Source of the DNA: Tricholoma matsutake
Taxonomy: Eukaryota > Basidiomycota > Agaricomycetes > Agaricales > Tricholomataceae
Assembly (NCBI GenBank): GCA_026075535.2
Contig: AP026543.1
Coordinates: forward strand, 9,796,001-9,860,000
Length of the DNA stretch: 64,000 nucleotides
Reading direction: 5' to 3'
Shown here: positions 2,345-48,609 of the stretch, piece by piece
How the letters are laid out: each line of letters begins with the position of its first letter
Position numbering within the stretch: position 1 is the stretch's first letter
The notes under the pieces: generated by a model
Databases searched by the model: none
Seen by the model: only the letters and a program-made list of their open reading frames with translations
Told to the model about the DNA's origin: nothing
Made by a program: the position numbers and the translations under genes

Positions 2345-3016
2345 TTGACTACTTTCCCTTGTCATCTCCATTTGCCTATTGTGATGTTGCAAGCTTGGGT
2401 TCTTGGTGAACTTGTCTCCGCAGCCTTTGATGGTTCATTTTCCAGTTATAAGATATCTCAAACACTGGCAACTACTCTTAATGTGCTTGGCAACAATGTC
2501 TCACTTCCCATTAATGCTGATATGGGTTCTGGAAGTTTTACTTGCATTGTGAATTTGGAAGTTGATAATGGACTACATTCTGATGTTGTACTTGGGAGAG
2601 ATTGGATGACATATTATTGAGATTATCTCATTTTGGAGGGATTGGTGGAATTCAGGTCGTTCCAATGTGAGCAGCAGGTGAAAAATGCAGGTGAGTCATT
2701 GATATTTGTTTCTCTTTTTACTGTGTTTAATTTTTGCATGTAGATGACCAGAGCAGAGTACTTTACACTCCCCCACCTATTCCAATTGGATTCCAGTTTG
2801 TATGGCTGGAGTTTCTGGAATTTCTGGAATCCAGTGGAATTTTTTTTGTATGTAGTTTTCCCTATGCAGCACAATTCCAGTCGGAATAAGCAATTTACAG
2901 CTGGAATCCCTGGAATCTGACCGGTCTCATCACAACCAGACTAACCAGAATGCATGGACTAATTGGAATAACTGGAATGCACGTGCTTTCCCAAATAAAA
3001 GTTTCACATACAGTAA

Positions 3017-3077
3017 GAATTGAACACTTGACCTTGGGTCTGCACACATAACAGTGTGCTTAACCACTGAGCTACCA
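3017..3077 (-). ncRNA. L tRNA-like module (A and B boxes), element copy 1
   Basis: On the minus strand, GGTAGCTCAGTGGTTAA (3060-3076) fits a tRNA A box. AGTGTTCAATTC (near 3017-3031) sits where a B box would be. Box spacing and sequence are tRNA-like, but the remainder does not fold as an intact tRNA as far as I can judge. Transcription would run leftward, toward the element end. Confidence 0.6.
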
Positions 3078-3348
3078 AGCAATTATTCCTCTACATACAT
3101 TTAATACTTTGATTACCCAACCAAGGTGCATAGTTAATCACAGCCATTAATGGAATAATTAATAAGTATGCATGACATGTGACACATGACTGCCAGCTCA
3201 CAACCACCACCACCACCACCGTCGTCAACGCCGCCTCCTCCTCCTCTCCACTCTACCACCACCACTGTGTGCACACCTCCCACCACTGTTCCCATGCCCA
3301 CTTCCACCATCACCACAACCTTCAAATGAGCCGACTGGATGGAATGCG

Positions 3349-3460
3349 GGCCCAAATGATGGCAACTGTTGTTTGGGCCATAGATAAGTTTTTTTCTTTT
3401 TTCTTTTTCTTTTTATCAATCAACTAATTGTAATTTATTGCTTCTTAGGTTATATACTAC
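3349..3460 (+). repeat. Hairpin A plus intron-like tract
   Basis: GGCCCAAATGATGGCAACTG and its partner form a near-perfect inverted repeat (3349-3379). It is followed by ATAGATAAGTTTTTTT, a long pyrimidine run, CAACTAAT, and CTTCTTAGG at about 3450. Sister copies have GTAAGT in place of ATAAGT, so this copy has probably lost its donor site. Confidence 0.65.
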
Positions 3461-4681
3461 TGGTGATGACCTGCTGTGACGAAAACATGCAATGCATGCC
3501 CACAGCCACCCAATCCCCTCCTCCCCTTTCAAATTGGATGTGAGGCTGTTGACACGGGCTAGGTGGGTGCAGAGGGATACCAGGAGACCCCAGAAGGGGG
3601 ATATCTACCTAGTAAGCACCCACCAACTGCCATAAGCGCACCACATCACACTGACACACCCCAACCCCCCCCCCCCATACAGAAATCCATGGCAACACTG
3701 ACTTACCACCCACTCCCACTGCTGCAAGCACCTGCTTGCAGGTTGGGTAGGGTGAGTGGATGATGGTCACCAATGACAACAAAGAACGAGCACCAGGGCC
3801 CCACCACAATGAGGAACAGCCCCAGGACCCACCATGATGACCCAGATGCCAACGCCGACACACCACCTGCCTCCAGCCCCATGAGCAACTGCTTGTGGGG
3901 TGGATGATGGGTGGAACAATGCTGGTGATGATGACAAAACACCAAACAGCACCACCAGCGGCGCCACCACCACCACCACCAGGGCCAGATGACAATGACG
4001 AGTGCCATGGCACCCACCCCACGCCTACAAGCAACTGCTCATAGGGTGGATTGTGGGGACGGATGATGGGAGGGAAACAACAGGAAGGGCCCAGGAGACA
4101 TCACTGATGTCTCCTGGGCCATAAGTAAGTTTTTTTAATTTAATTTTCTTCCTTTTGGTACAACTAACAACACAAACAGGCCACACAACAAATGATGCAC
4201 TACCTGCCCCCAGCCCCACAAAGCAACTGCTTGTGGGGTGGATGGCGAGTGGAACGAGGATGAAGACAACAGCACTGAATGACATGGCAGGCCCAGCACC
4301 AGAGCGGGGAGGATGACAGGCACCAAGGGCAACAATGGGGAGATACGGGACCACAGGGAGCAGGCAGGACAATGGGCACCCAGGATGGTGAACCCAGGAG
4401 ATGCACCAAGGACAGCGGGGCCGTGTCGCCTCCCCGTCCCCTGCATTTCACTTTTTTTTTCTTTATGTTTTTACCTCGCCCCTCACACCAAATGCAAGGG
4501 CTTTTTATATATATAAATAACATAGTTTATGTATTTAATCACATCATATTCCACTCCCTCACGTTGAACGTGAGGGATGTGGTTAATTAAAAAACTTTGC
4601 CCTTAATTACTTGGGAAAAAAAAGAGTTATGAGTCTGAGTGTCATAAATACACCTTATATTACCAACTAATAATTCTCCTG

Positions 4682-4746
4682 TGGCTCAACTGACATGTTT
4701 GGTTTGTCATGTGATCACTCTAATCAAGATGTCTTGAGTTTAATCC
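4682..4746 (+). ncRNA. R tRNA-like module, element copy 1
   Basis: TGGCTCAACTGA (4682-4693) matches an A box and GAGTTTAATCC (4736-4746) a decayed B box. The downstream body, with AGGCACTTTGACAACTTAAG, is shared with copies at 23475 and 57409. Transcription would run to the right, toward the element end. Confidence 0.6.
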
Positions 4747-5394
4747 TTACTCTGCACAAATATATTTGTAGGCACTTTGACAACTTAAGACTTGAAATTT
4801 GACTATCCATTAGGGTATATACCCTAAGTTGAGCATCTGGAGTAACTGGAATCTGGTTGGAATAACTGGAATAACTGGACTCTGGTTGGAATAGCTGGAC
4901 TCCAGTCAGAATAACTGGATTCTGGTTGGAATAACTGGAATAACTGGACTCCAATTGGAATAGGTGGGGGAAGGCAAATTACAGCCAGAGCACAACCCTG
5001 GAAATAATGGGAGGCACTTGTCACGATCATGAAATGATTGTCATCAATTCAACTTCCCTTGCTTCTTCCAGTTTGGTGTCTAACGTTAATAATCTCCCTA
5101 TAATTCATGAAATATTATTAAATCCTGCATATCCCATTTATTGTGATTGCCCATCTGCTTCATTGGAAATATTCCTTCAGTCTCATGGAATACCTGTGCA
5201 TGATGACTTCCAATTTTCTCAAATGGCACTCATTCATCATCTTCTAAATGGTGTTTGTGTTTACAGCACTCATGTGGGCTGTCAGTCTGTTGCAATGATG
5301 AATAATGTTCTTAATCTTGTGCTGACTGTTTTGACCCATGTCCTCAATGCTCTGCTCAATATCTTTTGTATTCTTTGCAAAAGTCTGGGGTATC

Positions 5395-16575: not shown

Positions 16576-18180
16576 TCACAAATCCTGATCCTTCAGTACA
16601 TACACTTTTCCTCGAAACAACACCAACCCTTGTTCCTCAGCCCATTCATCTCCTTTGATATTACCTTTCTTCTCTCCCTTCAGAGCTTTCACGGCTTCCA
16701 CTACTTCATCGTCCATTTCCAAACATTGTCTAATTTTAGACAACATTTCCATTTCCGAGCTATCTATTAATAGATGCCCTTGACACATAGCACAAATGCG
16801 AAAGTATTTGGGTTTGAGTAAGGTAACATTTTTATTGTCCTCCTCCACCCCCCTTTTATGATCAATACGTCTGGATAAGGCATCTGCTTTCCTCATTAAG
16901 CTTCCCACTTTATGGACCAAGTGAAAGTTGAAATGCAATAGGAATAGTGCCCAACGCGCTTGCCTGCGATTAAGCTTTTTAGCCGACATGAAGTATTGCA
17001 GATTTTGATGATCCGTCCAGATCTCAATTTGATGCGTACATCCCTCCAAATAATGCCTCCACGCCTCCAATGCTTGTATTATCCCCAACATCTCTTTGTC
17101 ATGCACATCATAATTCCTCTCCACATCATTCAACCCTTTTGACAAGTATGCACAAGGATGCCATTTGTCATCTTCACACAGCATTGATAACACCGCTCCA
17201 GTAGCAAAATCGGATGCATCGGATTCCACTTGCAAAGGGCGTGTGAAATCTACTGGGGCTAATATTGGTCCCTCCACAAACTTCCTCTTCAACTCCTCAA
17301 ACGCTGTCTGCTGCTGCTCTCCCCACCTCCACACTACTCCCTTTTGCATAAGGTTATGTAAGGGTGTGGCAATTTTAGAAAAATTGTGCACAAAGCGACG
17401 ATAATAATTTGCGAGTCCCAAGAAGGCTTGAACCTCCTTGACACGGGTGGGCACAGGCCAATCTGTGATTGCCTGTACCTTGATCGGATCCATTTTGATC
17501 CTGTCAGGGCTGATCAATAATCCTAGGAACTTGATCTCGCTTGCCCCAAACACACACTTCTCTGGTTTCAAAAATAGATCGTTTTCCGCCAACCTCCGTA
17601 ACACCTCCTGCACTATCGCCTCATGATTCTCTTCATCCTCCATGAATATCAGAATGTCATCAATAAATATTATTACCACGCCTTTGTCTATTACATCCTT
17701 GAAAATGTCGTTCATCATATTTTGAAAGGTTGGGGGACTATTAGTCATCCCAAAAAACATGACAAGCAGCTCGAAGGATCCTCGATGCGTGGCAAATGCA
17801 GCCTTCCACTCATCTGCTTTCTTTATTTGTACATTGTTGTATCCCCATCGTAAATCCAATTTTGTAAACACCTTGGCTTTTCCCACCTTATCAATTATTT
17901 CTGAGATCAACAGCAGGGGGTATGCGTTCTTCACTGTCCACTCATTCAGATACCTATAATCAGTACACATCCTCTTCCTTTGGTCTTTTTTGGGCACGAA
18001 GAATATTGGTGATGTCTGCGGTGATTTCGAAGGTCGTATGTATCCTTTGCGCAATTGCTCCTTCAGGAATGCATCCACTTCTTCTTGTTCCATCGGAGAT
18101 AACGGATATACCTTTGACTTCTTTGGCACAAACCCTGGCTTCATCTCAATCGCATGATCCCATGGCTTCCACACCGGCAT
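16576..18180 (-). CDS. Chromovirus A reverse transcriptase and RNase H
   Basis: This is the longest open stretch of the element (534 residues). The RT opens with PLSPMEQEEVDAFL, has the KLDLRWGYNN segment and the catalytic box FIDDIL near residue 170, and continues through FLGLANYYRRF. RNase H follows with LQVESDASDF, HDKEMLGIIQALEAW and IWTDHQNLQYF, ending ADALSRR. The W in DLRWGY replaces the usual R/S, and several T-rich substitutions suggest decay. The frame overlaps the protease segment because of a small deletion near 18178 (SE then MPVWKPWDHA). It is part of a broken gag-pol, so no enzyme is expected from this locus. Confidence 0.88.
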   Translation of the reverse strand: MPVWKPWDHAIEMKPGFVPKKSKVYPLSPMEQEEVDAFLKEQLRKGYIRPSKSPQTSPIFFVPKKDQRKRMCTDYRYLNEWTVKNAYPLLLISEIIDKVGKAKVFTKLDLRWGYNNVQIKKADEWKAAFATHRGSFELLVMFFGMTNSPPTFQNMMNDIFKDVIDKGVVIIFIDDILIFMEDEENHEAIVQEVLRRLAENDLFLKPEKCVFGASEIKFLGLLISPDRIKMDPIKVQAITDWPVPTRVKEVQAFLGLANYYRRFVHNFSKIATPLHNLMQKGVVWRWGEQQQTAFEELKRKFVEGPILAPVDFTRPLQVESDASDFATGAVLSMLCEDDKWHPCAYLSKGLNDVERNYDVHDKEMLGIIQALEAWRHYLEGCTHQIEIWTDHQNLQYFMSAKKLNRRQARWALFLLHFNFHLVHKVGSLMRKADALSRRIDHKRGVEEDNKNVTLLKPKYFRICAMCQGHLLIDSSEMEMLSKIRQCLEMDDEVVEAVKALKGEKKGNIKGDEWAEEQGLVLFRGKVYVLKDQDL

Positions 18181-18830
18181 TCACTCAGACTCCTTCTTTG
18201 GAACACTGACAAATGTTCATGATACACTTTTGGCACCCACTCCTCCACTGGCTTCTCCACCTTCATGATATTCTTGTCCCATGACTGTCCTTTACGAACT
18301 GCTCTAAAGGTTTGCTTCTGCTCTTCTTTCTCGATCATGATCGGAACTTCCCCATTTGGCATTTCCTCATCCTCCACTTCCTCCATCGTAACAGAATACT
18401 TCCTCGGATGTTCTTTCTCTTTCTTTTTCCTTTTTTCTTTCTTCATCTTCCTCCCATACACATTACATTCCTTAGGACAATGAGTCATTTGTACTTTCCC
18501 AGTTTTCCAATCAATTTCGGGATTATGCTTCTGTAACCACAGACATCCTATTATTAGATTGGTTTTCCCAAGATCGCACACTTCGAATACGGCTCGCTCC
18601 TGATGCTCCTGATACTTTAATACCATAGTCACCTCCTCCTTGATAGTTCCTCCATGATTGACTGTTCCGTCAATATTGTACACCATTATAGGTTGTGCCA
18701 GCTTGCGTGTGTTAATACTGTTTCCAGTAATTAAGGATCGATTAATAAATAATCCTGTAGCACCACTGTCAAGCAACGCTTCCACATCAATAGCTGCATG
18801 CATGTCCACTGTCTTCAGTCCCACAGTCAA
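18141..18830 (-). pseudogene. Chromovirus A protease segment
   Basis: The retropepsin active site is visible as ALLDSGATGLFINR, with LIIGCLWLQKHNPEIDW as the C-terminal part of the fold. A Lys/Glu-rich linker (KKEKRKKKEKEHPRK) leads to the RT. Upstream, an in-frame TGA near 18846 (RSA-stop-IEPE) and a frame change separate it from gag. Downstream, a short deletion near 18178 puts the RT in another frame. The protease would mature Gag and Gag-Pol. Confidence 0.82.
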
Positions 18831-19021
18831 GGTGATTTCGGGTTCTATTCACGCAGAGCGAATAAAGAATTTAGGGGTTTTCAGAAATGACATGTGACAA
18901 TTTTCTTTGTTGCGTGATTCACAACAGTTGTACTCCTCCTCGATTTCCTTTTCTGATTTACTCTGGGTTTCCTCAGATACTAATACATTGTAACGATTCT
19001 GGGTCACCAATGGGGAAACCT

Positions 19022-20119
19022 TCACTGGGACTCTTCCACATAATTCTCCTGCTTGCCTTCCTCCTGCTTCACTTCCTCAATTGTAGCTCCCCTGATCTTT
19101 CTCTTCTGCTTGCAATACTTAGAAATGTGTCCTAACTGCCCACAGTTAAAACATTTAAGTGGGGCTCGTCTCCCCACTTGATCAACCTCCATTGCCTCTG
19201 CTGGTGCTGCTGACTCCATAACTATAGGTGTCACTGCCATGGCTGGTGGCTGTGCCCTTGGAGCTTGCGCCTGAGGCGCCTTTCCTTTCTCGGACTTTCC
19301 TCCTGATGACTTTCCAAATTTACTACTCCCGTACATCAACTTTGACTCCACCTGTTCCTGCCGATATTGCCGGTCAAGGCGCATTGCCCAATTATACCAC
19401 TCATCCAACTTCTCTGGCATAGAAGGTAGTCAGTAGATAGACTTGAATAAAGAGGGATTTAATCCTGCTTTCAAAAACTCTACCAATGCAGCTTCTCCCA
19501 TGTCCATTTGCAAAGCTTCTGCTTTGAACTGCAAAATAAATTCATCCGCTGTTAAGGAACCTTGGCGCATGGTCTTTAATTTAGCATTGGCTGTCGCCTT
19601 TGGATTAGGGTCTCCAAACTGTGCCTCCAATCTCTCCAGAAATTCCTTGAAGGTTGCAAATGGTTTATTTCCCGCGGCAATTTGATTAATAGCCTCGTTT
19701 CTCCAGAACTGTGCTTTCCCCCCCTGAATGTATGAGAGAGCAAACATAATCCTAGACTCGGCTGTACGAAACTTGGGCTTCCTCCCATGGATGTACAATA
19801 CTATAGAGCTGATGAAGGATTTTGTATTCTCCATGGTACTGTCAAAGATTTGTGGGGGCGCGTACTTAGGTAAGTGTGCTTTTCCATTTCTGGATTTCTC
19901 CACTGTCTCATCCTCCTGCGATATCCACTCCACCATCTCCTCCATCTCATCATCTCTTTCTCCTGTCGTCTCTGGCTGTACTTCCACTTGTCTGGGCTGT
20001 GATGCTGCCAATACTGACACTAATTGCAACATTTGCACTGTGAGCGCATCAATTTTTGCCTCTAGTGCTGGTATGGGAACAGGATTAGGACCGGGATTAG
20101 AAGTTGAAGGTTCGGACAT
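19022..20119 (-). pseudogene. Chromovirus A gag with zinc knuckle, split by UGA CUA
   Basis: The first part (19430-20119) starts MSEPSTSNPGPNP and carries the capsid region with FWRNEAINQIA and FLERLEAQFGDPNPKA. The second part (19022-19420) starts MPEKLDEWYNW and contains a canonical CX2CX4HX4C knuckle, CFNCGQLGHISKYC. They are in one frame and separated by a single TGA followed by CTA. A second copy of this gag at 52946-53638 has the same TGA CTA. It could be an inherited CGA to TGA mutation or a readthrough site. The start codon lies 486 bp downstream of the LTR, leaving a long leader. Confidence 0.85.
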
Positions 20120-21770: not shown

Positions 21771-23713
21771 GAGTACATTACACTCCCCCATCTATTCCAG
21801 TTGGATTCCAGTTATTCCAGCCAGAATTTCTGGAATTTCTGGAATCTGGTGGAATTTTTTTTGTAGGTAGTTGGCCCTATGCAGCACAATTCCAGTCAGA
21901 ATAAGCACCAAATCTACACCTGGAATAACCAGAATCTGACCAGACTCATCATAACTGGACTAACCAGAATAACTGGAATGCATGTGCCTTCCCAAATAAA
22001 AGTTTCATATATGACAAGAATTGAACACTCAACCTTGGGTCTACACACAGAACAGCACACTTAACCACTGAGCTATCAAGTAATTATTCCTCTACATGCA
22101 TTTAATACCTTTATTACCCAACCAAGGTGTGTGAACAAGTAATTCCAGCCTATATAGTTATGATCACATGTTGTGACTGCCAGCTCACCATGACCACCAC
22201 TGTTGTTGATGCTGCCTGCCTGCCTCCTCTCCACTCTACCACCACCACCACTGCATGCACCCACCACCAGTGCTCCCATGCCCATTCCCACCATTACCAC
22301 TACCTTACAACAAGCTGACTGGATGGAATGCAGGCCCAAATGACAGCAACTGTCATTTGGGCCATAGATAAGTTTTTCTTTTTTTCTTTTTTGCTTTTGT
22401 TTTTATCAATCAACTACTTGTATTTTGTTGCTTTTTAGGTTGTATACTACTGGGGACAAACTGCCATGATGAAAAATGTGCACACCCACCCAATCCCCTC
22501 ATCCCTGTTCAAATAGGATGTGAGGCTGTTGACATGGGTTAGGAAAGTGCAGAGGGATGTGGGAGACCCCAGAAGGGGGATACCCACCTGGTAAGCACCC
22601 AGCAACCCCCATATGCATGCCATGTCACACTGATGCACTTAACAACCCCCCCACCCCCCCCAAAAAAAAAAAAAAACAGAATGCAACAACACTGACCCAC
22701 AGGCCCCAGCACCACCCCATGCTGATGAGCAACTGCTCATTGGGTGGATGGCAGGTGCACCAGGGCCATATGATGACAATGATGACCACAAGCAGCACCA
22801 CCACCACCATCAGGGCCAGACAAGAACACTGAGTGCCACATAGGGTGGATGATGGGTGCAGTTTGCTACAGTGGTGGGTGTGAGAGAAGAGGGGGGCAAG
22901 ACCACCACCAAATGACATGGCACCCACCCCATGCCTATGAGCAGAATCTCATAGGTTGGATTGTGGGGGCTATGGATGATGACAGGGAAATCATGGGAAA
23001 ATGGCCATATGTAAGTTTTTATTTTTATTTTGCTTCATTTTTGTGTAACTAACAACAGATGCAGGCCCCACACTGAACAACACACCACTCACCCCCAGCC
23101 CCACTGAGCAACTGCTTGTGGGGTGGATGGTGAATGGAATGAGGACAATGCCCACAGGGGCAGCATGCCCATGAGCTCTTGCTTGTGGGGTGGTTTGTGG
23201 TTACAGTGATGGCTAGAGGCACCAGGGAAACTGCCAGGACAATGTACCAAGGACAGCACATGCAGGACAACACACCAAAGATACACCAAGGGTGATGCAA
23301 CCAGGATAATGCACCAAAGAAAATGCACCTGGGATGGCAAACCCAGGAGAAGCACCAAGGATGATGCACCACAGTGGGGCAGCATCCCCTCCCCCCCACA
23401 TGAAATGTGGGGAGGGTTTTTTTTATACTTTTAATAGTTTTGTGCCTCCCACATTACTAACCAATAATTCTCCTGTTCCTCAACTGGTTGAGCAAACTCA
23501 TTTTGTTTGTCATGTGATCACTTCATGAGGCCTTGAGTTCAATCCTTACTCTGTACAAATATATTTTGTAGGCACTTTGAGAACTTAAGGCTCAAAATTT
23601 GACTATCCATCATGGTATACTCTAAGTTGAGCATCTGGAGTAACTGGAATCTGGTTGGAATAACTGGAATAACTGGAATCCGATTGGAATAGGTGGGTGA
23701 GGGTAAATTACAG
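21771..23713. mobile_element. Composite L-A-B-C-R element, copy 2, with 8-bp TSD
   Basis: The left end GAGTACATTACACTCC and the right end, reversed, CTGTAATTTACCCTCACC match copy 1. The flanks are GATTATGT (21763-21770) and GATTATGC (23714-23721), an 8-bp duplication with one C/T difference. Modules in order: L tRNA-like (minus, A box 22061-22077), hairpin A (22333-22363) with an intron-like tract to about 22440, poly-C/A (22650-22678), B hairpins (about 22725, 22940, 23100, 23170), C hairpin (23388-23415), R tRNA-like (plus, A box 23475-23486, B box 23535-23545), GGAATAAC repeats, terminus. It is non-coding. Confidence 0.8.
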
Positions 23714-32079: not shown

Positions 32080-32682
32080 GAGTACTTTACACTCCCCCAC
32101 CTATTCCAGTTGGATTCCGGTTTGTCCGGCCAGAATTTCTGGAATTTCTGGAATCCGGTGGAATTTTTTTGTATGTAGTTTTCCCAACACAGCACAATTC
32201 CAGTTGGACTAAGGATCCAATTTACACCTGGAATCCCTGGAATCTGACTGGACTCATCACAACCAGACTAACCAGAATGCATGGACTAACCAGAACAACT
32301 GGAATGCACATGCTTTTCCAAATAAAAGTTTCACATACAGTAAGAATTGAACACTCAACCTCAGGTCTACACAGGTTTACATGCAGAACAACACACTTAA
32401 CCACTGATCTACCAAGTCTTTATTCCTACATACATTTAATACCATTATTAGCCTTTAATACCTTTATTACCCAATTAAGGGTGTAGTAACCATACATAGC
32501 CGCATGCATTGCATGACATGTGACATGTGACTGCCAGCTCACAACCACTACCACCATCGTCAATACTGCCTCCTCCTCCTCTCCACTCTACCACTACCAC
32601 TGCATGCACACCCGCTACCAGCACTCCCATGCCCACTCCCACCATCACCACCACCCTCAAACGAGCTGACTGGATGGAACAC
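32080..32682. mobile_element. Composite element copy 4, left part
   Basis: The terminus GAGTACTTTACACTCCCC (from 32080) leads to an L tRNA-like module on the minus strand (A-box complement TTAACCACTGATCTACC near 32397-32413) and then A-flank sequence up to GACTGGATGGAAC. There a gypsy element is inserted. The rest continues at 42385 with ATGCAGGCCCAAATGATGG, exactly as in the uninterrupted copies at 3340 and 22322. Confidence 0.75.
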
Positions 32683-33696
32683 TGATGATACTCGACCAGG
32701 AAACCCAAACAAAACCCACAATAAGGTCTCAAATGGTATAACTCTAGTTAGAGGAAGGTTGCAAGGTAGTCCTAAATATCACCACTGTTACCCAAGGCTA
32801 GGGAAATGACTTTAGAGAGTGTCCGATGAAGTTTGAAGAGATTTGAGAATATTTGAAGTGCTGCAAAGGTGTTTGAGAGAGGTTCAGAGAGGTTTGAGGA
32901 GGTTCAAGGAAAGTTCAAAGAAGTTTGAGAGACTTATAGAGGACAAGGACATTTTTGATGAAGGCTGAGGAAAGACTATAAGGATGTAGGAAGGTGTCGA
33001 GAGGGGATAGACAATATGCGATAGTTTCGAGAAGCTAGTATGAGTTCAAGGAAATTCGGCATAAAACACTGAGCTTCGAGACTAAGTCGAGATGCTTGGA
33101 CTCAAGAGAATGGCTCTTAAATCAGATGATTGGTGTGAGAGGACAATCTATTCTGTTGTTCTAAGTAGCTAGTACAAGGCTATATATGTTTGGGAGAGGT
33201 GGTACTTAAAAAGGAAATAGAACATGAGGAATACATGAGGCAAGATATAAAACAATAAAGAACTTTGCAAATCATAAAATAAATGAAAGATGATAAGAAG
33301 GGAAATGTATAGAGTCACAATTTATTGTGGGTACCTGTCCTATTGATTCAATATATCATCAAGATGTCAAAGCGCCACAATCACGTCCTAGAATCCCATC
33401 GTTGTGTCTCCTCATGTCTGGTGGTGCTCAATATGCGACACACTAATTTATACAAGGTGTGCTGCATGTGTCTGAAGGACTGTGAAATAAGCATATGGTG
33501 GCCAAAGACCTTCGAGGTGCTGCAAAGTCATTCAAACTTGCTCGAAGTGTTGCAAAGTTGTTTGAAGTTGTTTGAAGTTGTTTGAAATAGTCTCGGAGTG
33601 GTTTCATGGGGTTCATAGGGGTTTGTAGCGTGAGTGGTTGTGTGTCGATGCATTTGGAGGCATTCCCAGAGCTTGGAGCTCAAGGTGGACCTATCA

Positions 33697-33710
33697 TCCT
33701 CCCCCTTACT
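33697..33710 (-). promoter_or_regulatory. 3' polypurine tract of gypsy B
   Basis: The minus strand reads AGTAAGGGGGAGGA directly before the 3' LTR start TGATAGG. It would prime plus-strand DNA synthesis. Confidence 0.8.
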
Positions 33711-33840
33711 GAAATACTGACTGTCCCAGTCAGCCAATTGGAGTCACATGCAAAATGTGTGATTGTGTTGAAATTGTAAACAAAAGCCAAAAATCTTCTC
33801 GTTCTTCTTTGTCACCTCTTAAACCTTTGACACTACTATC

Positions 33841-35160
33841 ATGTCTCTCCTCTCTGAACTCAACACTGAGGTCCTCGAATATGCAAAAGCAATGCCCAAT
33901 CGCAGTGTTGCTGAAGATGTTGACTTTGAAGTGTGGGGGAAAGGTTTTTGTGAGAAGATGGTAAGTTTCCATTTGTTATTCGATATTCAGATTCTAACAC
34001 AATATGTTCAGGTGGAATACGACGAACTGGTGGATGATTTGGGTGAAGAGCACAACTCAACCATGCAACAGGTTGTCGAAGAAGTTTTTGAGCTTTTCAA
34101 ACTGATGGCTCAACGTGAATGGCTTTTGTGGGGGGGACTTTTTGTTTGCAGATCTGAGTGAGCAGGTAGAGTGAGAGCGAAGGGAAGAGGAAGCAAGATG
34201 GGTTTGGGAGGAGGAGGAGGTTCGCAGGGTGGAGGAAGTTGAAGGTCGAGGCTCAGAGGGGGGCCTTAGTAGACGCTAGCTCTTGCTGTGTTTCGTGCAA
34301 AAATGTTGTTGAAGGAAGAGTTGCAGTGAGGAAACGCAGAGCTCACAGCAGAGGCCAGATCTATTGAGAGCCTAGAGGCTGGAGAGGAAGATGAAGAAGA
34401 AGATTTAGGAGGATTGCTGATAATCAGGATTGGGAAGCAGAAGGCAGTGGAGATCAAGGGAAGTGAGGATGAGGAGGATGAGATCATCGAGGATGAGGTA
34501 GAGAGCAAAAGGAGAAGGTTCACTGAGGGTGGACTTCTCAACTTCGAGGGCCCAGTAAGTTTTTTTGTTTGGCTTTGATGTTTTTTCTGATTGCTAACAA
34601 TGTCGTAGTGTGATTGATGTGCTGGGATGAGATCCCAGCCATTGTGTGTTGTCAAGGAGGGAGCCATGAAGTGCACGAAGTGCACTCAAGCAGTGCAGGG
34701 GTGTTACTGGGAAGGGGTCTCGAGGTGGGGACTTCACAAAGGCAAAGCAAGAGGATTTGGGGTTGCAAAACAAGATCCATGCCCAAAACAAGGTATGAAA
34801 GTTATTCGAAGTAATTTGTAGTGTTCGCTAACTTATTTATCAGATCAGAAGTGCCTCGGATTCGCATAGTGGGACCCATCGCCACAGTCGAACCAGTCAC
34901 AGGACCTTTGAGATCGTTGAAGTAGAAAAAGAGGTCGTCGAAAGGAAAGCAAAAGGCAAAAGTGAAAGTATCATGTGGTTTTGAAGAGGGTGAGGATGTT
35001 GATGAGGAGGTTGTGATTTGTCGTCGATTCCTGATGACAAGGTTAATGGAGTTGAAGGTCAAGATGGAAGTATTGTGTAGACAAATAGAGGTGGTGGAGG
35101 AAATGTTTGGAGGAATAGGAATATTTTGTTGTTCTTTCTGTTTTTACAATTTTAATTTTT
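33841..35160 (+). pseudogene. Antisense accessory gene inside gypsy B
   Basis: On the strand opposite to gag-pol, a spliced gene is visible. Exon 1 (33841-33960, MSLLSELNTEVLEYAK...) and intron 1 (33961-34011) join in frame to VEYDELVDDLGEEHN. Intron 2 is 34555-34608 with TTGCTAACAA. Intron 3 is 34793-34843 with TTCGCTAAC. The product has an acidic middle and a Cys cluster (PCD..., LCVVKEGAMKCTKCTQAVQG). This resembles small Cys-rich proteins seen in basidiomycete repeats. Stops (a TGA after PCD) and at least one frame change break it. The function is unknown. Intron signals on this strand argue that it was a real gene. Confidence 0.6.
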
Positions 35161-35292
35161 TTGTGAGTCTCGAAAGTAGCGATAAGAAAAGTAAAAGAAA
35201 ATGAAAAAATGAAAAATTTAGGGAAAGGCTCAGTATATCATCATGGCCAAAAAACCCTTTTGGAGTCTGCGCAACCACACTATAATGCAATA

Positions 35293-36574
35293 TCACGACT
35301 TGTATTGTACACTAAAAGAAATCAAGGTCATAGGTAAGTGATCGCAAACAAAGAGAAAGGGATAATTATTCATCTTTGAAGTCTGGAAGGTCTTTGGGAA
35401 TATCTTTGTCAATGTTTGAAGTGTTTCGCAGTTTTTCGAGACGTTTGGAGTCAATATCGAGGAAGTTCGGTGGCAGGGGAATTGGTTTTCATGCAAAATA
35501 GGGAAGGAGTTGGAAGGCTGCAACTGGTCAATGAAATACTGATCCATCGAGTTCACAGATGATGGAGGCTCCTCCATAGTTCCGATCGATGACAATGAGG
35601 GGACCTAAATATTGAGGATGCATCTGGTGATTGAGAGATTTCTCGATTTGCGTGTTGTGAAGTAGGACCAGGTTGCTTTTTTCAAAGTCATAGTCGTGCA
35701 TCGTTCATTTGTGAACAAGTTCAAAACATTTCGCAGCTTCGAGTCGAGCGGTATAGACTTTTGAATAGAGAGTTTCAAGGTCGGATGATCGTTTCTGTAG
35801 TGCTATTGCTCTTTGAGCAATGAGATCAGTTGTTGATAAGATAGAATTGGGAGGGGGTTGCAAGTATGTTGCTTTGGAGGTGTCGAGTGGGATCAGGGGA
35901 TGTGATCCTGTAATTGTGAAGTAAGGAGAGCAACCTATGCATCTATGAACTGTAACTCGTTCTGCCCAAAACACTGAGTGTGCTCCAGCTGACCATTTTC
36001 TCTGATCTCCATTGACTGCTTTGCATAATGATTGTCGAATATCGAAGTGAGCTTGTTCAACAATTCTGTTCACATGAGAATTGTAGCCACTAATTTGAAT
36101 GTGGTTAATGTGATATCATTTTGAAATGTATTCCAATGCTGCAATGAAAGCTGATCCGTTATCGCTCATGATTTCATATAGCAAACCCCATCTACAAATG
36201 ATGTCTTCAAAGATCCAATCCCCGAGGGTCATGGCATTTTCTTGTCAAAGGTTTTGCCATTCGGGATAGGTCGTTAGTGAACATCAACTTTGTATGATAT
36301 ACTTGAATCCGCTCAAAGGAGGCATTTGCATGGTATCGATGTAGGCTTTGCCGAATGAAGGTGTGGGTGTGGCGACTGTAAGTGGGATAAGGAGATCTCG
36401 AGTTTGTTGTACTTGGCACAGCTGGCAAGTGCGAATATACCATGCAATGTCTGCTTTCATGTTAGGCCACCAGAATTGTAGGGAAATAACGGCTTTCATC
36501 GCGAAGACCATTTTGTGTCCGATATTGTTGTGAGCTGCATGAATAACTTTGAGACGACGCTTGGGGATTGCCAC
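35293..36574 (-). pseudogene. Gypsy B integrase, broken
   Basis: Segments carry the zinc-binding part (VIHAAHNNIGHK with CQLCQVQQTRD), the first catalytic Asp in KAYIDTMQMPP, the second in IMSDNGSAFIAALEYI, and then GYNSHVNRIVEQAHFD. A C-terminal region follows (QYLGPLIVIDRNYGGASII). Stops and shifts occur between 36207 and 36080 and near 35705. No chromodomain was seen, which separates this family from the two chromoviruses. Confidence 0.82.
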
Positions 36575-36779
36575 GATTTTGTGAGCTCCATGAGAATCCT
36601 TCCTCCAAAGTTTGCTGCAATCTAAGAAGAATTCGGTGCAATATCAAACAAAGGTAGCATATTTGGAATCTGATAAATCTGGAGGTTGTACCAAATCCTC
36701 TCACCATTTTCAAATACGAATTAATCTTTTGTCTTCCTTTTTTGCATTGTTTGTTCATGGGACATTGTCGTAGGTCAGA

Positions 36780-36793
36780 TCCTCCCCCTTACT
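36780..36793 (-). promoter_or_regulatory. Second (internal) copy of the polypurine tract
   Basis: The 17 bases at 36779-36795 are identical to 33696-33712, which include the 3' polypurine tract. The copy lies between the RNase H and integrase coding parts. A central tract could serve as a second plus-strand primer, as in some other retroelements, but its use here is inferred. Confidence 0.5.
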
Positions 36794-36823
36794 GAGATCT
36801 GAAGAGAGGGAGAGTGTCGAAAC

Positions 36824-39577
36824 TCAATAGGAAGTGAAGGGATGAGTCATAAAGGGATTGATTTGGTGTACAAAACCATGAAGACAGTCAATCCAGTCTC
36901 CAAAATTGTTTTCATTACCGAACTGGTCATCTTCGTCTTGTGGAGGACGTCTCGAAAGTCCATCTGGACCATGATGTGTACCTTGACATGAACTAATGTG
37001 AAGTGAAAAGTGAGAATCGAGACGATCCATTGATTGATGCTAGCACTAGGTGCAATATCAGGATTCAAGAGCATGCCTTTGATATACCTTGTGTCAACTT
37101 CGACAATGAGGTTTCGGACCCCTATTAGGTACAATCGAAGTGATCCAAGAGTGCAATGTAGACCATAGAGTTCAAGTTTTGCTTGCGAGAACTGGGATTT
37201 GCCGTTGTTAAGCATGATAGAGCCGAATCAACTGTAATATTGTTTTCAAGGGTTGTCGGGATCACATTGCATGAGAAAGAAACCAATAGCGATGTACAAA
37301 GTGTCGACTGATAGGATAACTGGGGCATCGGATGAGTAGTTGATAGCACAAATTGCTGGGGAATTGATGAGTGCTTGCTTCAGGTCTTCCTGTGCTGCGA
37401 TTTGTTTCGGTCCGAATTCAAAAGGGACATCTTTTCGTGTAAGGTGTATTAGAGCTGTAGCACGTTGAGCAAAGTTTTGAATAAAGATACGACAAACTCC
37501 AATAGTTCCTAGAAATGCCTTGACTTTGGTAAGGCTTCAACGAGGTCCCCATTTGCTAACCGCTGTGATGTGAGTGGGATCGGCCATACGACCTTCGATA
37601 TTGCATCGATGACTTAAAATGATTATTTCGGGGACACAAAGGTAAAGATTTGGACCAGAAAATGTTCCTCTGCAATACTTCATGCATTGGACTACACAAT
37701 TTAGATTCCCAAAATGTTCCCAAACAAAGCATCGAATGCCTGGATTATCGGCGATCATTTCATAAGATCCTCCAATAGTTCAATATTCTGATTTTGGACC
37801 CTTAACTGGTGTGTCATCGATGTAAGGGATGGGGATATGATTTCGGGTTGTAGGATGAATGTTACATTGTCGTGTAAGATTGGAACCAAGTTCGTCCAAC
37901 CCATCAGTAGGGTGACAATTTGAAGCGCTCCAAAAGGTGTCTGAAACATTGTTAGATCTTGAGATGATTCTGCGACTTTCCTTTTGTCGAATGCAACATA
38001 TAGGTCCAACATTCCACCACAAGCACGTCTGCCAAATTGTTCAGCTAGATGCTTGGGGATCGGGATGATGCCAGAGTGCTGAATTATTACTTGATTAAGA
38101 GGTTTGAGACTGTGGACAATTTGAAGTGATTTTGTGTCTTTCTTTGCAATGCAAAACCATCGCGATCAATACGATGAGTTCAACGACTCATATACTCCTG
38201 CTTCTATCTTCTTTTTCAGCATTTTGCAGATTTGTTTGTACAGACCAGGAGGTATAGGGATATTATGTTCAACCCATGGAGTGTGAGGAATAACAGGGAA
38301 TTCAATAGGAGGAAAGAAGTCAGGGCAAAAGCTTCCTCATTCTTGTTCGGTCCATGCAAAACCCATTTCATGATTTTGAATAAAGTTGTGCATAAACTTT
38401 CGTTCTTCTGGCCATAGGAAATTGCCAGGATGGTTTTTGTCGATAATAGCTTTGCATTCGAGTGTATACCAGGGAGAAGGGACAAATGATGGGGGGTGAG
38501 GATTGAGTTTTGGCATTTTCTCGAGGGGGTCACCAGTGATTGTTCAAATGATCCAAAATCAATTGGGTAGTTCAGTAATAACTGGTCAAACCTTCTGTGT
38601 GACTGGTTTATATTTCTTCGAGGCTATGAAGATTGGGTATATAGAGTCGGTTGATGAGACATGGGGAGAGGAAATGATAGCAGAGTCATGCATAGAGGTG
38701 GCCATCCAGGCCAATAAGAAAGTTGCATACTGGTGGCTAGCCATTCAATATAAGTTTGCAAGAATTGAGGAAAAGGAAAGGGTGTTCAAAGAGTTTGAGG
38801 AGTCAATATTGGGAATATTCGCAGTGTACTCAATAGTTATAGAGGAATTAGAATGGTCAAAAGAAATAATGAGGGCACACTGGTTATTCTCTGAGATTTT
38901 ATTCTCTAGTTGCAAAAATCCTTGTGAACTACTCTTCTTCGATGATTAGATTGGGGGATAGTTGGAATAGCACAGGATCGTGTCGAGTTCAGATCAAAAA
39001 TAGTTATCGCTTGTGCTTCATTCTGATAATTCTTCACTGTACTTTCAGTGAGAACATTGAATGGTCATCCAAGCAGAATGTTGTAGGCTGGATCGCAGAT
39101 AATGTGTATTTGCATGTAGAGGGTGATGCTACCAATTTCGCAAGGTATGTTCCTTGCTAAACCTAGACTCTGGTCAATACCACCATTAGCCAATTGGAGA
39201 GGGATGTGTATCGAAGGATCGAATGCAAGACTGAGTTCGTGACAAACTTCTTCCGACATTGCAATGATTGATGAACCCAGATTGACTACACTTTTGACTG
39301 GATTTCTGCCGTTGATGTTCATAATGACCAATCTAATAGAGTGTGATTCCTTGGCTGCAACGAAAGGTTTAGGTATTTCTCCAGGGTGAAGACTGCTAAT
39401 ATATGTTTTGTAAGGGTCATCAATTATGAAGATGTCATCATTAAGGAGATTTGTAGGATTATTTCCTTCAGGTTGCTGGATACGATGCACAGTGACCTGT
39501 TCCTTCCATTTCATACAAACTTTGGGCGATAGTGAAAGTAATTCTTTGGGAGTTAGAGTGATAATTGGGGTTTTCAT
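36824..39577 (-). pseudogene. Gypsy B protease, RT and RNase H, broken
   Basis: The protease segment (39065-39577) reads VVNLGSSIIAMSEEVCHEL, where the catalytic DSG is expected, so the Asp is lost. The RT is in pieces: GGMLDLYVAFDKRK (about 37990), FQTPFGALQIVTLLMGWTN (about 37900), the box YIDDTPVKGP (about 37800-37830) and FVWEHFGNLNC (about 37700). RNase H follows at 36824-37349 with LYGLHCTLGSLRLYLIG, VEVDTRYIKGMLLNPD and HGPDGLSRR. At least three frame changes and many TGA or TAA stops occur. The order and motifs match a common basidiomycete gypsy lineage. Confidence 0.82.
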
Positions 39578-39580
39578 CGA

Positions 39581-41300
39581 TCAGTTGAAGACATCTTCGG
39601 TGATTTTGTCCTTTTGAATGGGAGCTGGGGTATGGTATGATGGGCTGTCTTTTGCTTTTCCTGTCGATGCGAAGTTGAGTTCGTGGGGAGGTAGATAAGA
39701 ATTTTCTTTAGCACTGTTGTAGGGATGTATTACCGGTTGAGATGGTTGTTCAGAGATCAAAGATGGTGCTGAATTCAAAGGAGGTAGGTTGGTTGCTGTG
39801 GACAATATCAATGGTGCTGGTGCTTGTGGGACGAATCATTCGACTGGTGCAGGGATTGAGGGCCATGATGTAGAAACTGTTGGCACATTTGAATCAGTTT
39901 GTGCAAAAGGTCTACCACTTCATAAAGCATATATCTCTTGTTCGAGTTGTGTGATATGATCTTTGGCCATTGTAGATAGGTTGGTAATTTGGTAAACACC
40001 TCTGGATGGCATCAAAGAAACTGTTGAAGGTGCAATATTATACATTAGCAAAGGGGTAACATTAGATGGAGGGTTTTGTCGAGTCCATTCATCAATCCTG
40101 TCCTTGATAAAATGACCGGGGATGCTTCAAGGAGTGAATTGACCATTTGGGAGAATGATTTTGCCTTCAGTGTTCTTCTTACACTTTCCTTCATTGATAT
40201 ATGACTGGCAAACCAAGCAATCACTAATGAAATGTCCTGTAAGCCCACAAAAGATGCAAACTAAAGTTTCGAGCTGGTCCAAATGAAATCCACTGTTAGG
40301 TCGAGTAGTGTTCATGGTCTTCGAACCTGCTCAAGCGGTTACAATAGTGGCTGCAAATTTCTTGAGGATTGCTGTAAGATCTTCTGATTTAATTTGAGGT
40401 GAAGATGTTGAGGTTGTTGGGATTGCCGAAGGTGCTGAAGAATGCGAACTGAGTAGCAATGTTGAATCCGAGCCGATAGATCCTGCTAAAACAAATTTTG
40501 CCACTGCGTGAATATTGTCGAGTGGGTAGGGGTCGTCGGGGTAGTGATCAGGGAATTTTAGTTCGAGTCATCGAGTGATTCTAGCCCAAAAACCTGGTTG
40601 GAAACCCCGGATGAATGCTCTGCTTTGTTCTGCTTTGAATCACTTGCATTGTAAATACCTATGCAAAGTTGTTCACCAATGAGTTTGTCCATGTCTGAAA
40701 TTAACCATTTCCGATCATCTTCAGAACCAGGGTACAGTTGGTGAATAGCGATGTGAAAATTCTGGAACAAAATGCCAGCATTGTATTCTGGAATTGATTC
40801 CCAGAGTTTGGAAGTGTCAATATTGAGGTAGCAACAAGCGTGCTTCTTCATTTCTTCTGAGTTCGTGACATTGCACGCTGAGAAAAGCAATTCAAGCTCA
40901 TTAAAGTATCTGCAAAGTTCTTGCGGCTGGGTAGGGTCAAATTTTGGAGCCGTGGAATGACCACAAGCTGGCATCATTGCTTGTGTAGTCATGAATGTGA
41001 TGTTTCTAGGGGTAGGGGTTAAAACTTGTGTGAATGATGGTAGAGGAGTCGAAGTTGTTGGAAGGATGAATGAAGATGTAGATGATGAAGATGAAGAAGT
41101 AGAGAATGATGTTGAAGGCGATGAGATTGGTGAAGGGAATAGTCAACAATGAGTCGATTCTGCTTCAGAAACAGGGATTAGAATATCTCCCAGTTGTACG
41201 AGAGATTCGAAGGTGTGGTGAGTGTCAATTTGTAGGTTTCTAGCTCGTGTTGGCCTAAGCCAGGAGATTCGAGATGGATTAGGCGATGAATGATTTAGAA
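39581..41300 (-). pseudogene. Gypsy B gag with zinc knuckle, broken
   Basis: The capsid part (40558-40992) reads TTQAMMPACGHSTAPKFDPT and DRKWLISDMDKLIGEQ. A canonical CX2CX4HX4C knuckle, CIFCGLTGHFISDC, lies at about 40225-40265. A Pro/Ser-rich linker follows to 39581. A Ser-rich tract (TSSSSSSSTSS) lies near 41070-41110. Stops at about 40555, 40130 and 39835 break the frame. The knuckle would bind element RNA in the particle. Confidence 0.78.
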
Positions 41301-41302
41301 AC

Positions 41303-41320
41303 CCCTCACGGTGGGCTCCA
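41303..41320 (-). promoter_or_regulatory. tRNA-type primer-binding site of gypsy B
   Basis: Just inside the 5' LTR, after TTT, the minus strand reads TGGAGCCCACCGTGAGGG. The TGG start is complementary to the CCA of a tRNA 3' end. The priming tRNA would end CTCACGGTGGGCTCCA. This contrasts with the self-priming site of chromovirus A. Confidence 0.75.
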
Positions 41321-42384
41321 AAATGATGATACTTGACCAGGAAACCCAAACAAAACCCACAATAAGGTCTCGAATGGTATAACTCTAGTTAGAGGAAGGT
41401 TGCAAGGTGGTACTAAATATAACTGCTGTTACCCAAGACTAGGGAAATGACTTTAGAGAGTGTCCAATGAAGTTTGAAGAGACTCAAGAGTATTTGAAGC
41501 GCTGCAAAGGTGTTTGAGAGAGGTTCGGAGAGGTTCAAGGAGGTTCAAGGCTAGTTCGAAGAAGTTCGAGAGACTTATAGAGGACGAGGACATTTTTGAC
41601 GAAGGCTGAGGAAAGACTATAAAGATGTAGGAAGGCGTCGAGAGGGGATAGCCAATATATGATAGTTTCGAGAAGCTAGTATGAGGAGTTCAAGGAAATT
41701 TGGCATAAAACACTGAACTTCGAGACTAAGTCGAGATGCTTGGACTCAAGAGAATGGCTCTTAAATCAGACGATTGGTGTGAGAGGATGATCTATTCTGT
41801 TGTTCTAAGTAGCTAGTACAAGGCTATATATGTTTGGGAGAGGTGGTACTGAAAAGGAAATAGAACATGAGGAATACATGAGGCAAGATATAAAACAATA
41901 AAGAACTTTGCAAATCATAAAATAAATGAAAGATGATAAGAAGGGAAATGTATAGAGTCACAATTTATTGTGGGTACCTGTCCTATTGATTCAATATATC
42001 ATCAAGATGTCAAAGTGCCACAATTGTGTCCTAGAATCCTGTCGTTGTGTCTCCTCATGTCTGGTGGTGCTCAATATGCGACACACTAATTTATACAAGG
42101 TGTGCTGCATGTGTCTGAAGGACTGTAAAATAAGCATATGGCGGCTGAAGACCTTCAAGGTGCTGCAAAGTCATTTGAACTCACTCAAAGTGTTGCGAAG
42201 TTGTTTGAAGTTGTTTGAAGTTGTTTGAAATAGTCTCGGAGTGGTTTCATGGGTAGTCTCGGAGTGGTTTCATGGGTAGTCTCGGAGTGGTTTCATGGGG
42301 TTTGTAGGGGTTCATAGTGTGAGTGTCATGTGTCGATGCATTTGGAGGTGTTCCCAGAGCTTGGAGATCAAGGTGGACCTATCA

Positions 42385-42737
42385 ATGCAGGCCCAAATGA
42401 TGGCAACTGTCATTTGGGCCATGGATAAGTTTTTCTTTTTTTTCTTTTTTTGCTTTTTGCTTTATCAATCAACTAATTGTATTTTATTGCTTTTTAGGTT
42501 ATATACTACTGTGGACAACCTGCCATGATGAAAAATGCACAACCCATGCCCATGCCCACCCAATCTCCTCCTCCCCATTCAAATGGGATGTGAGGCTGTT
42601 GACATGGGATAGGAGGGTGCAGAGGGATGCCAGGAGACCCCAGAAGGGGGGTACCTGCCTAGTAAGCACCCACCAACCTCTGTACTCACCCCATGTCACA
42701 CTTATGCACCTGAATGCCCCCCCCCCCCCCCCCCCTG
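42385..42737. mobile_element. Composite element copy 4, right part, truncated
   Basis: Hairpin A (GGCCCAAATGATGGCAACTG, about 42390-42421) and its intron-like tract (to TTTTTAGG near 42497) continue the copy begun at 32080. It runs to a poly-C tract (42717-42735) and stops there. The remaining B, C and R modules are missing, replaced by a new terminus at 42738. Confidence 0.7.
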
Positions 42738-43935
42738 AGGTCTTTACACTCCCCCCCCCAATCTGAGCAGACTCCACTCGGACTTCTTTGGCTGAAAGTC
42801 CTGCCAAACTAAATGTCCAGTCCAAGCTGAGTCCAAGTTGCTTATATAATTGACTGAAAAATCAGTGGCTACCACAGGGATTGAACCCTCATAGTCACAT
42901 GATAAAGTACAATTAAGGCAGCAATATAACCGTTAGACTAAAGCATCATTACAGATAAGTAGTTATATCTCTCTATGTACCGCCCCAGCTGTGATGACAA
43001 ATCAACACAGCTGCTTCATCAACAATGCTGGCACATCACCTTCAATGGCACCGCCTCCTCCTTACTTCCTACCCCAATAACCAACAATGGGAACAAGCCC
43101 AAACAATGGCGTTGTCATTTGGGCTCACTTGTAAGTGTTTTTTTACATGATTTTTGTTGTTTTGTTTAACTAACTGAATTTTCCTTAATGATAGGTTTTA
43201 TCTATGTTATAACGACACCGCAGCCTCAAAACCATGACAATGGCTGACACAGCCACTACCCTAGGACCCAGAACCACCGCCGCAAGCAACTGCTTGTGGG
43301 AATGGGTGCAACTGCAAAATGGCAGGACAATGGCGATGCCAACTTGGCCAAATGGAACAACAACACAATGAGGCAACTGGAGACAACTGGGACTGGGAGA
43401 TGGAATGACGAGGGGACAAGCAGGAAACAACAAAAGGAAGGCAAAGCAAATGAACAAATGATGTCTCTTGGGCTGTTGGTAAGTTTTTTTTTCTTGTTTT
43501 TGTTACTAACAAACTTTTTTAGGTATTATCTAGTAGCTGCTGATGATGACAAGCACTCAGAACCACTGCCACAAGCAGCTGCTCGCAGGGTGGGAATGGG
43601 TACAACTTCAAAATGACAAGAACAGCTACCCCAACAGAACAAGCCCCCACCCCCAGCCTTCACGCCCACCATGCAGGATGCACCACCCACCTCTAGCCTC
43701 ATGAGCAACTGCTCATGGGGTGGATGGTGGGTAGTGTTGCTGTGACTCAGCTAAAAGTCGACTTGAAAGCCAAAGTTGGTCACATGCTGGTTCAAGTTGC
43801 ACACCACTTCCTGATGGAAACAGCTGGTTGATTTGGTCACAACTTTGACTCAGTCACATGCTGGTTCAAGTCATGCACCACTTCCTGATGGAAACAGCTG
43901 GTTGATTTGGTCACAACTTCAACTCAGGTCAGGAC
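42738..43935 (+). repeat. L terminus followed by A and B modules
   Basis: The terminus GAGGTCTTTACACTCC near 42736 begins an L tRNA-like module on the minus strand (GGGTTCAATCCC near 42876-42890 as B box, TTTAGTCTAACGGTTA near 42930-42945 as A box). A hairpins follow at about 43099-43125 and 43459-43475, each with a GTAAGT donor and TTTTTAGGT or ATAGGT acceptor; TACTAACAAA at 43502 is a strong branch-site match. B hairpins lie at about 43272-43295, 43565-43592 and 43690-43722. A tandem duplication of about 97 bp with CACTTCCTGATGGAAACAGC occupies 43770-43925. Confidence 0.6.
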
Positions 43936-43952
43936 TTGAAGTCGACTCACAC

Positions 43953-48260: not shown

Positions 48261-48609
48261 AGTAATGTGCTTCTAATGATTGACTTAGTACTATAAATAT
48301 GTTGACTAAAAAACGACTTACAAAAGTCATTACTTAACTTGCAATAGGTCGTCAGGTTGATTTCACATTTAGGCTTACCAAATGCCACAGTATTAACCTG
48401 TGAATATAAACATTAATTTGTCGTTTACCCATTTGATGATGCAAGACTTACAAAAATGACTGTGTGAATGAATGAGCCGTTAGTATGTCTAATACAGTTC
48501 GCAGTGTGAGTTGTTTGGTTGTGTTGTGTGTGGATACCGCGAGGCATGAAAGTAGGTGTCCACTATATCGCGTGCACGAAGTCACTGCAAACTTGTACTG
48601 ACTGGTTTA

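Follow-up and report, generated by a model that had tools for sequence, protein, structure and literature searches.

Miniature inverted-repeat transposable elements (MITEs) have terminal inverted repeats (TIRs) and no coding capacity, and stay under about 600–800 bp. B-box sites are found at boundaries, in the insulators formed by tRNA genes (tDNAs) and in TFIIIC boundary sites, which are host genes or host sites. Within the genus Tricholoma, megB1 is described in the accessible text of its report as a dimeric Alu-like element of the Agaricomycetes, counted as a retrotransposon, which is multicopy in the rRNA spacer in many Agaricomycetes and which in Tricholoma section Caligata has a copy outside the rRNA gene (PMC10627285). 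The element analysed here occupies positions 2756–4984 of a 64,000-nucleotide stretch of Tricholoma matsutake DNA (positions 9796001–9860000 of contig C6; hereafter the window), and the genome searched with it comprises 161,040,721 bases in 13 contigs. A telomere-to-telomere assembly of T. matsutake is given, in the part of the paper at hand, as 13 sequences of 161.0 Mb (PMC10211490). We consider it likely that the element represents a non-autonomous TIR family, usually of about 1.7–2.6 kb, which makes an 8-bp target duplication with a transposase supplied in trans and carries an outward RNA polymerase III (Pol III)-type unit in each end, these units probably acting in cis.

The 2756–4984 element is a complete non-autonomous transposon with inverted ends and an intact target duplication. 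The left TIR (2756–2798, plus strand) starts with the tip GAGTACTTTACACTCC, the right TIR (4942–4984, plus strand) finishes with AAATTACAG, and the two ends pair in inverted orientation at 88% over 41 bp (query positions 3–43 with 2187–2227). Immediately outside the tips stand two exact copies of the 8-bp target sequence CCAGAGCA, at 2748–2755 and 4985–4992, which bears out the related inverted ends and the exact 8-bp target copy reported in an earlier note on this DNA. The tips of the element read GAGTA and CTGTA, with CAGTA in a subfamily.

The same tips recur across the genome. A 20-mer from the left tip, allowing at most two mismatches, finds 1225 genome sites versus 3 for a reversed-pattern control, and a degenerate 21-mer of the tip, matched exactly, finds 884 versus 0. 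Other copies are 83–89% identical across about 2.1 kb or more in the best 40 of 3548 candidates. Target duplications were scored in 36 copies with both tips recognised, duplicates being removed and one-tip copies excluded; these loci are best matches or tip pairs and not a random sample. The 8-bp repeat is exact in 22 of the 36 and matches at 7 or more of the 8 positions in 26, exact repeats of 5, 6, 7, 9, 10 or 11 bp are found in none, and a mispaired-flank control gives 1 of 1260 at the exact level and 4 of 1260 at 7 or more. Copies that bear large later insertions (L049, L050, L051/L052 and L053/L054) still have their target duplication, and where one copy is nested within another (L016) the duplications of both are intact. 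These counts, together with the interrupted and nested copies, settle that the whole unit inserts as a TIR element. Among the first 100 tips, all on C1, there are 28 convergent neighbouring pairs with spans of 1707–11095 bp; 19 of the 28 fall at 1.7–2.6 kb and the others are longer, so that the family lies outside the size range of MITEs, and the five longest pairs (7.9–11 kb) hold other insertions with retroelement frames. The family copies are old, with a median pairwise difference of 0.15 (minimum 0.05) and strong CpG decay (C>T at 0.32 at CpG versus 0.06 at other C).

Inside each end lies a putative compact Pol III-type unit, newly described here, in which A and B boxes are followed by a run of four or more T (T4+). 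In the left end of the 2756–4984 element, the unit reads outward on the minus strand, with the A box TAGCTCAGTGGTTAA at 3060–3074, the B box TGTTCAATTCT at 3016–3026 and a terminator-like TTTT at 2997–3000, 15 nt past the B box. In the right end, it reads outward on the plus strand, with the A box at 4682–4696 (family sequence TGGCTCAACTGGTTA, degenerate here past TGGCTCAACTG) and the B box at 4737–4747 (AGTTTAATCCT here, AGTTCAATCCT in the family). Scored against a tRNA-type A/B-box consensus, for which the maximum is 24, the outward boxes have means of 19.4 (left) and 21.5 (right) versus 16.8 and 17.2 for the inward reading of the same regions, in agreement with the outward tRNA-like boxes that had been proposed for both ends; random pieces of the window, some of which overlap elements, average 16.7 with a maximum of 22.

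The spacing of the predicted terminator is regular. All nine module types have their first T4+ run 14–17 nt past the B box (with shuffling, 0.7 on average and 4 at most); the types are not independent, as they include two from family W and two left modules of family X, both introduced below, and four homologous right types. Within the window family, 32 of 34 left modules have the run at 14–15 nt (in 2 of the 36 no left B box is found) and 34 of 36 right modules have it at 15–19 nt; among the first 12 copies, most have no other T4+ run before the tip. Because the run is near the B box and inside the tip, the unit would be compact and should stop within the element. A SINE (short interspersed element) has a single Pol III transcript over the element, a 3' tail and variable target duplications; here we find internal terminator-like runs, opposed units and 8-bp duplications. 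The ends had been described as SINE-like; as each Pol III-type unit reaches a T-run of its own within the element, they are not SINE termini, and the units look like short Pol III genes. What does stand from the same proposal is that this is a large, non-autonomous DNA element whose ends are inverted and both bear outward tRNA-like boxes, and that its target duplications are 8 bp long.

In the samples examined, the units are tied to the tips. The cores counted are those on C1 below 15.02 Mb. Of the 71 exact right A-box cores, 47 have an exact outward tip at 218–634 bp and none has an inner one (random, 0.16), and 16 of 27 exact left cores have an outward tip at 279–318 bp, likewise with no inner tip. 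A right B box with its terminator has an outward tip at 30 of 36 sites and an inner tip at none, while 6 of the 36 are without an exact tip nearby. A chance head-to-head pairing of two SINEs, the alternative named in the earlier note, would explain the SINE-like A and B boxes at each end and the 24 of 71 right cores for which no exact tip is near. It is nonetheless very improbable, given the fixed tips, the 8-bp duplications around the whole unit, the outward position of the tip for most exact cores and the inner position for none, the location of the terminators within the element, and the identical plan of the sister family X. In these samples, the composite has withstood this alternative, with precise ends and a dominant 8-bp duplication as well as outward-tipped cores on both sides.

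Sister families repeat the arrangement. In the window, a TIR of sister X at 42737–42784 (plus strand, tip GAGGTCTTTACACTCC) is 94% complementary to 50544–50591, and an outward tRNA-like unit follows at 42870–42960 on the minus strand. A sister element in reverse orientation spans 46972–50591 (minus strand), with its right-type end at 46972 and its left-type end at 50591; the right-type outward unit is at about 47215–47300 (minus strand) and the left-type unit at about 50280–50370 (plus strand), and an intact 8-bp repeat around this element was not seen. Genome-wide, the pattern GAGGTCTTTACACTSCCCC has 1073 sites (control 0), which include W and are otherwise X-type, the W pattern GAGGTCTTTACACTGCCCCAT has 125 (control 0), and the tip of V, CTGAACTTTACACTCC, has one, at L062. 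The tips of X (window), W (L066) and V (L062) are joined to different subterminal DNA, yet each has an outward unit whose B-box end is 140–287 bp from the tip. Of eight listed tips, 7 reach a score of at least 19 outward and 2 inward; L046 and L059 are one place borrowing a window-family unit, and when they are left out, 5 of the remaining 6 reach this score outward and none does so inward. Both ends of X have units; W, V and the element that ends near position 2019 of the window have one at the single end seen. Counted on C1 below 11.66 Mb, 15 of 26 X B boxes (GAGGGTTCRANYCC, a pattern chosen from X) have a GAGGTC-type tip outward, lying 98–277 bp inside it, with no inner tip within 700 bp (random, 0.075), and none of the 26 is associated with a window-family tip.

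Right-type modules are homologous across the window family, X, V and the 2019 element (z of 8.7–20.8 against mononucleotide shuffles), and the sister bodies share with the 2756–4984 element blocks of about 60–81% identity plus one exact 22-bp match. Judged by these similarities, the window family, X, W and V are related. The end-unit plan common to X (both ends) and three further diverged families (one end seen in each) is new.

Three side features accompany the sister elements. A gene-like stretch at about 43900–45560 (plus strand), inside the X copy that starts at 42737, might be a captured host gene; it resembles a fungal kinase, but no Pfam family scores over its cut-off in the pieces scanned (about 43.9–45.5 kb). 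The X element also has AT-rich arrays at 48632–49183 (22-bp spacing) and 47467–48281 (irregular spacing), which are partly inverted relatives of each other. In the right-type unit of the 2019 element (1355–1800), the A and B boxes are parted by about 330 bp; the ends of this insert look inverted by eye, and it is perhaps a small transposon.

The recurrence of one design in diverged sister families suggests that the units serve the element in some way. As X carries them at both ends and three diverged families at one, they are probably maintained for a cis action on the ends, and their conservation, orientation and terminators are the grounds on which we infer such a function. In the mechanism that we favour, a transposase supplied in trans would insert the element and thereby make the 8-bp duplication. 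The outward unit inside each end, with its A and B boxes and the T4+ terminator ahead of the tip, would be bound by TFIIIC/Pol III, which would keep the ends poor in nucleosomes and insulate them against read-through and the spread of heterochromatin, and the transposase could then reach both open ends. We put forward only tentatively that TFIIIC/Pol III binding opens or insulates the ends for the transposase. The mirror-image layout would most simply derive from an ancestral element whose long inverted repeats already included the unit. It is somewhat doubtful that there is a whole fungal TIR lineage with Pol III/TFIIIC units as its standard termini, working as mini-genes that insulate or open the ends, the pair maybe joining via TFIIIC clustering.

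Divergence from the consensus was measured in 35 copies (L068 is left out, since its left tip belongs to another family). At the right end, it is 0.028 for the A box, 0.030 for the gap and 0.034 for the B box, versus 0.079 overall; at the left end, the corresponding values are 0.065, 0.106 and 0.081, versus 0.130. These values bear on the possibility that the units are relics of an ancestral SINE or tRNA pseudogene, trapped in long inverted repeats and copied without function. The lack of a full tRNA fold is consistent with such an origin, as are the age of the copies, seen in their pairwise differences, and their strong CpG decay, and we regard it as a real, though not the favoured, possibility. 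Relics would not be expected to keep the spacing of A box, B box and terminator in all nine module types despite the strong divergence of the sister blocks, nor to have boxes that diverge less than the whole end regions at both ends. A third possibility, that Pol III transcripts act in trans (short regulatory RNAs would be one case), fits promoter boxes and a terminator that delimit a short unit. We think it improbable, as the left and right units of the window family are only weakly alike (z of 5.9, mononucleotide shuffles), no known RNA family is found at the Rfam gathering cut-off (weak sub-threshold matches occur only elsewhere in the element), and the transcripts would end ahead of the inverted repeat.

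Several observations weigh against a non-autonomous family with cis-acting end units. The stretch directly past the right B box is almost as conserved as the right boxes, and at the left end the terminal 45 bp equal the left boxes in conservation (divergence 0.073); low divergence is therefore not confined to the boxes, and in the boxes it could stem from inheritance from a single master copy. In the two stretches searched with it, the Rfam tRNA model matches nothing at an E value of 5 or below, and ARAGORN reports no tRNA gene within the window, so the end units are not whole tRNAs and real tRNA genes were rejected; with loosened thresholds, ARAGORN makes many calls on the modules, which we do not trust. 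The run past the right B box is TTT in the 2756–4984 copy and TTTT in most family copies. In addition to the right cores mentioned above, 11 of the 27 left cores are without a nearby exact tip, for which mutation, truncation or membership of sister families may be the explanation. With at most two mismatches, there are 1605 right and 609 left A-box cores genome-wide (the patterns differ in length), and hence many right-type modules lie outside the window family, at least partly in the sister families, whose right units are homologous. For the X B boxes, widening the range to 4 kb raises the outward count to 18 of 26 and brings in 3 inner tips. Finally, no autonomous copy was found among 37 open frames of at least 150 amino acids from 15 loci, including the five C1 pairs of 7.9–11 kb; these frames match 19 Pfam families, all of retroelement type except DUF6830 in one, with hAT, KDZ (Kyakuja-Dileera-Zisupton) and MULE domains absent.

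The element had been called hAT-like, a label that is not supported. hAT transposons prefer the target nTnnnnAn and have tips of the YARNG/CAGNG type. In the exactly duplicated targets, T is at position 2 in 5 of 22, A is at position 7 in 3 of 22, and both occur together in 0 of 22; nor do the family tips, that of the subfamily included, fit the hAT motif. The length of the duplication suits hAT and KDZ alike. Transposase domains were located by a profile search of the genome and compared with tip positions, with 150 of 449 hAT and 150 of 831 KDZ candidates scored and the first 93–100 tips taken per list. On these partial lists, which make a weak test, the numbers of hAT domains within 12 kb inside and outside the tips are 0 and 0 for W, 0 and 0 for X, and 2 and 2 for the window family; those of KDZ domains are 1 and 0, 0 and 5, and 2 and 1, respectively. 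We think it unlikely that the element is a hAT moved by a hAT transposase, in spite of the 8-bp duplication, which according to the accessible text is usual in hAT (PMC12730594), and of the hAT dimerisation domains common in the genome. Mobilisation by a KDZ transposase is a possibility that deserves to be kept in view. Zisupton and one TET+ Dileera lineage likewise make 8-bp duplications, as stated in the part of the source at hand (PMC12730594), KDZ domains are very common here, and a single one lies 2.8 kb inside a W tip; against it, the KDZ domains are not enriched inside the tips on the partial lists compared.

For MULE, all 97 candidates were scored, giving 60 matches. No MULE domain is within 12 kb inside the W tips (100 of 125 W tips), and none is within 45 kb of window-family or X tips (six MULE places, part of the C1 tips). 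On the partial lists, the domain comparison thus favours none of hAT, KDZ and MULE. Neither the hAT label nor a SINE origin is established; the architecture itself is real. We note that three W tips (C1:12188522, C1:18747653 and C3:7568045) have a MULE domain 13.0–14.6 kb away on the outer side, for some of which duplication may be the cause. The very many KDZ and hAT candidates given above are those of the first pass over the whole genome. The window itself contains a Plavaka transposase fragment at 60878–61873 (minus strand; PF18759, E 2.3e-46), Ty3-type gag, protease, reverse transcriptase and RNase H at 16576–20119 (minus strand), and a Ty3-type RNase H with an integrase zinc domain at 53718–54479 (plus strand).

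Between the end units, the interior has an ordered series of hairpins and intron-like segments, all on the plus strand. In the 2756–4984 element, hairpin A (GGCCCAAA..TTTGGGCC, 3349–3379) is followed about 4 nt on by intron-like segment 1 (3384–3448), which starts with ATAAGT and not GT, ends in AG and has a CTAA branch-like motif. The conserved motif GACCCCAGAAGGGG and intron-like segment 2 come next (3586–3682; GTAAGC at 3612, CTGAC, and AG at 3682). The B-hairpin zone, with loop GCAACTGCT, covers 3877–4239 and encloses a second GGCCCA-type hairpin (GGCCCAGGAGACATC..GATGTCTCCTGGGCC, 4088–4120) and intron-like segment 3 (4125–4179; GTAAGT, CTAAC, CAG). The C zone at 4421–4600, recognised by eye, has CCCTC..GAGGG-type hairpins next to T-runs. 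In a census of 35 copies, hairpin A with its downstream motif and the B-type hairpin loops are each present in 34 (0–5 loops per copy, median 3); of the three hairpin families in the earlier note, A and B are thus well founded and C is seen by eye alone.

The segment after hairpin A starts with ATAAGT in 29 of 35 copies and with GT in 14 of 35, some copies having more than one module, and the sister-family modules start with GTAAGT, GTATGT or GTGAGT. A second hairpin with GTAAG is present in 12 of 35 copies, and GACCCCAGAAGGGG in 29 of 35, with GTAAG next in 28; this motif lies within a stretch common to W (70% over 560 bp). From hairpin A, the intron-like segments and the GACCCCAGAAGGGG/GTAAG junction, the body looks like a left-to-right transcription unit that would be spliced and either non-coding or decayed. 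Canonical introns in every copy were rejected, as segment 1 often has no canonical start. Hairpin A as a selected RNA structure was likewise rejected, since its arms vary independently and without covariation support. In 46 hairpins of 31 nt from 65 sites (other lengths being dropped), the observed and expected pairs number 142 and 145 for Watson–Crick, 104 and 103 for wobble, and 25 and 23 for C/A mismatches.

The window holds further copies of the family. The second (21771–23713, plus strand) is flanked by the target copies GATTATGT and GATTATGC, so that the 8-bp target proposed for it is present at 7 of 8 positions. The third (55795–57655, plus strand) has an intact right end and a damaged left tip, of which remains lie near 55777, consistent with the loss of this tip noticed earlier; no target repeat is seen by eye. 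Partial copies had also been reported, and they are present at 32080–32679 (the left half of a fourth copy, element 1–589) and 42384–42728 (apparent continuation, element 588–921), both on the plus strand; because the two element parts adjoin, they look like halves of one split copy rather than separate ones. A stretch of about 9.7 kb (32680–42383) parts the two halves. A copy said to be in reverse orientation was not recovered, there being no reverse-strand match above 90 bits among the matches listed; what was meant is probably the sister element at 46972–50591.

Should the units prove functional, DNA transposons have taken the Pol III machinery into their ends; to our knowledge, it is otherwise known in such a role only from host boundary elements and from the targeting or expression of retroelements. 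In the accessible part of the T. matsutake repeat table, unclassified repeats make up 25.4% of the genome, 13 SINE copies are annotated, and table 2 gives 2,342 'small RNA' copies of 1.94 Mb, about 830 bp each (PMC10211490). If the assembly is the same, the present analysis would supply a structure for a repeat of high copy number, in a genome with that share of unclassified repeats, and elements with tRNA-like ends may, conjecturally, have been filed there as 'small RNA'. Word searches recognised no such element in open-access titles and the starts of abstracts, which is weak evidence, and the tip letters combined with 'transpos' gave no match in the open-access literature; in the main text of PMC6980582, the terms SINE, hAT, tRNA, unclassified, MITE and DNA transposon never occur.

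The matsutake element shares features with several known systems and differs from each of them. megB1, from the same genus and termed Alu-like, is set apart by its description only: its accessible text is without mention of inverted ends or 8-bp duplications, unlike the element here (PMC10627285). Like tDNA insulators and TFIIIC sites, the units place B boxes at boundaries, here inside both ends of a mobile element, and a likeness in function would be conjectural. Like tRNA-derived SINEs, the element has tRNA-type A and B boxes; unlike them, it has no 3' tail that we could see, and it has opposed units, a T-run of its own ahead of each tip, inverted repeats and 8-bp duplications. Like the large non-autonomous TIR or MITE-like derivatives of hAT and KDZ/Zisupton, it has inverted ends and 8-bp duplications, no transposase gene is found in it and its copy number is high; it differs from MITE-like derivatives in its length, being 2.2 kb and not short, in the outward Pol III-type unit of each end, and in the intron-like modules that lie between.

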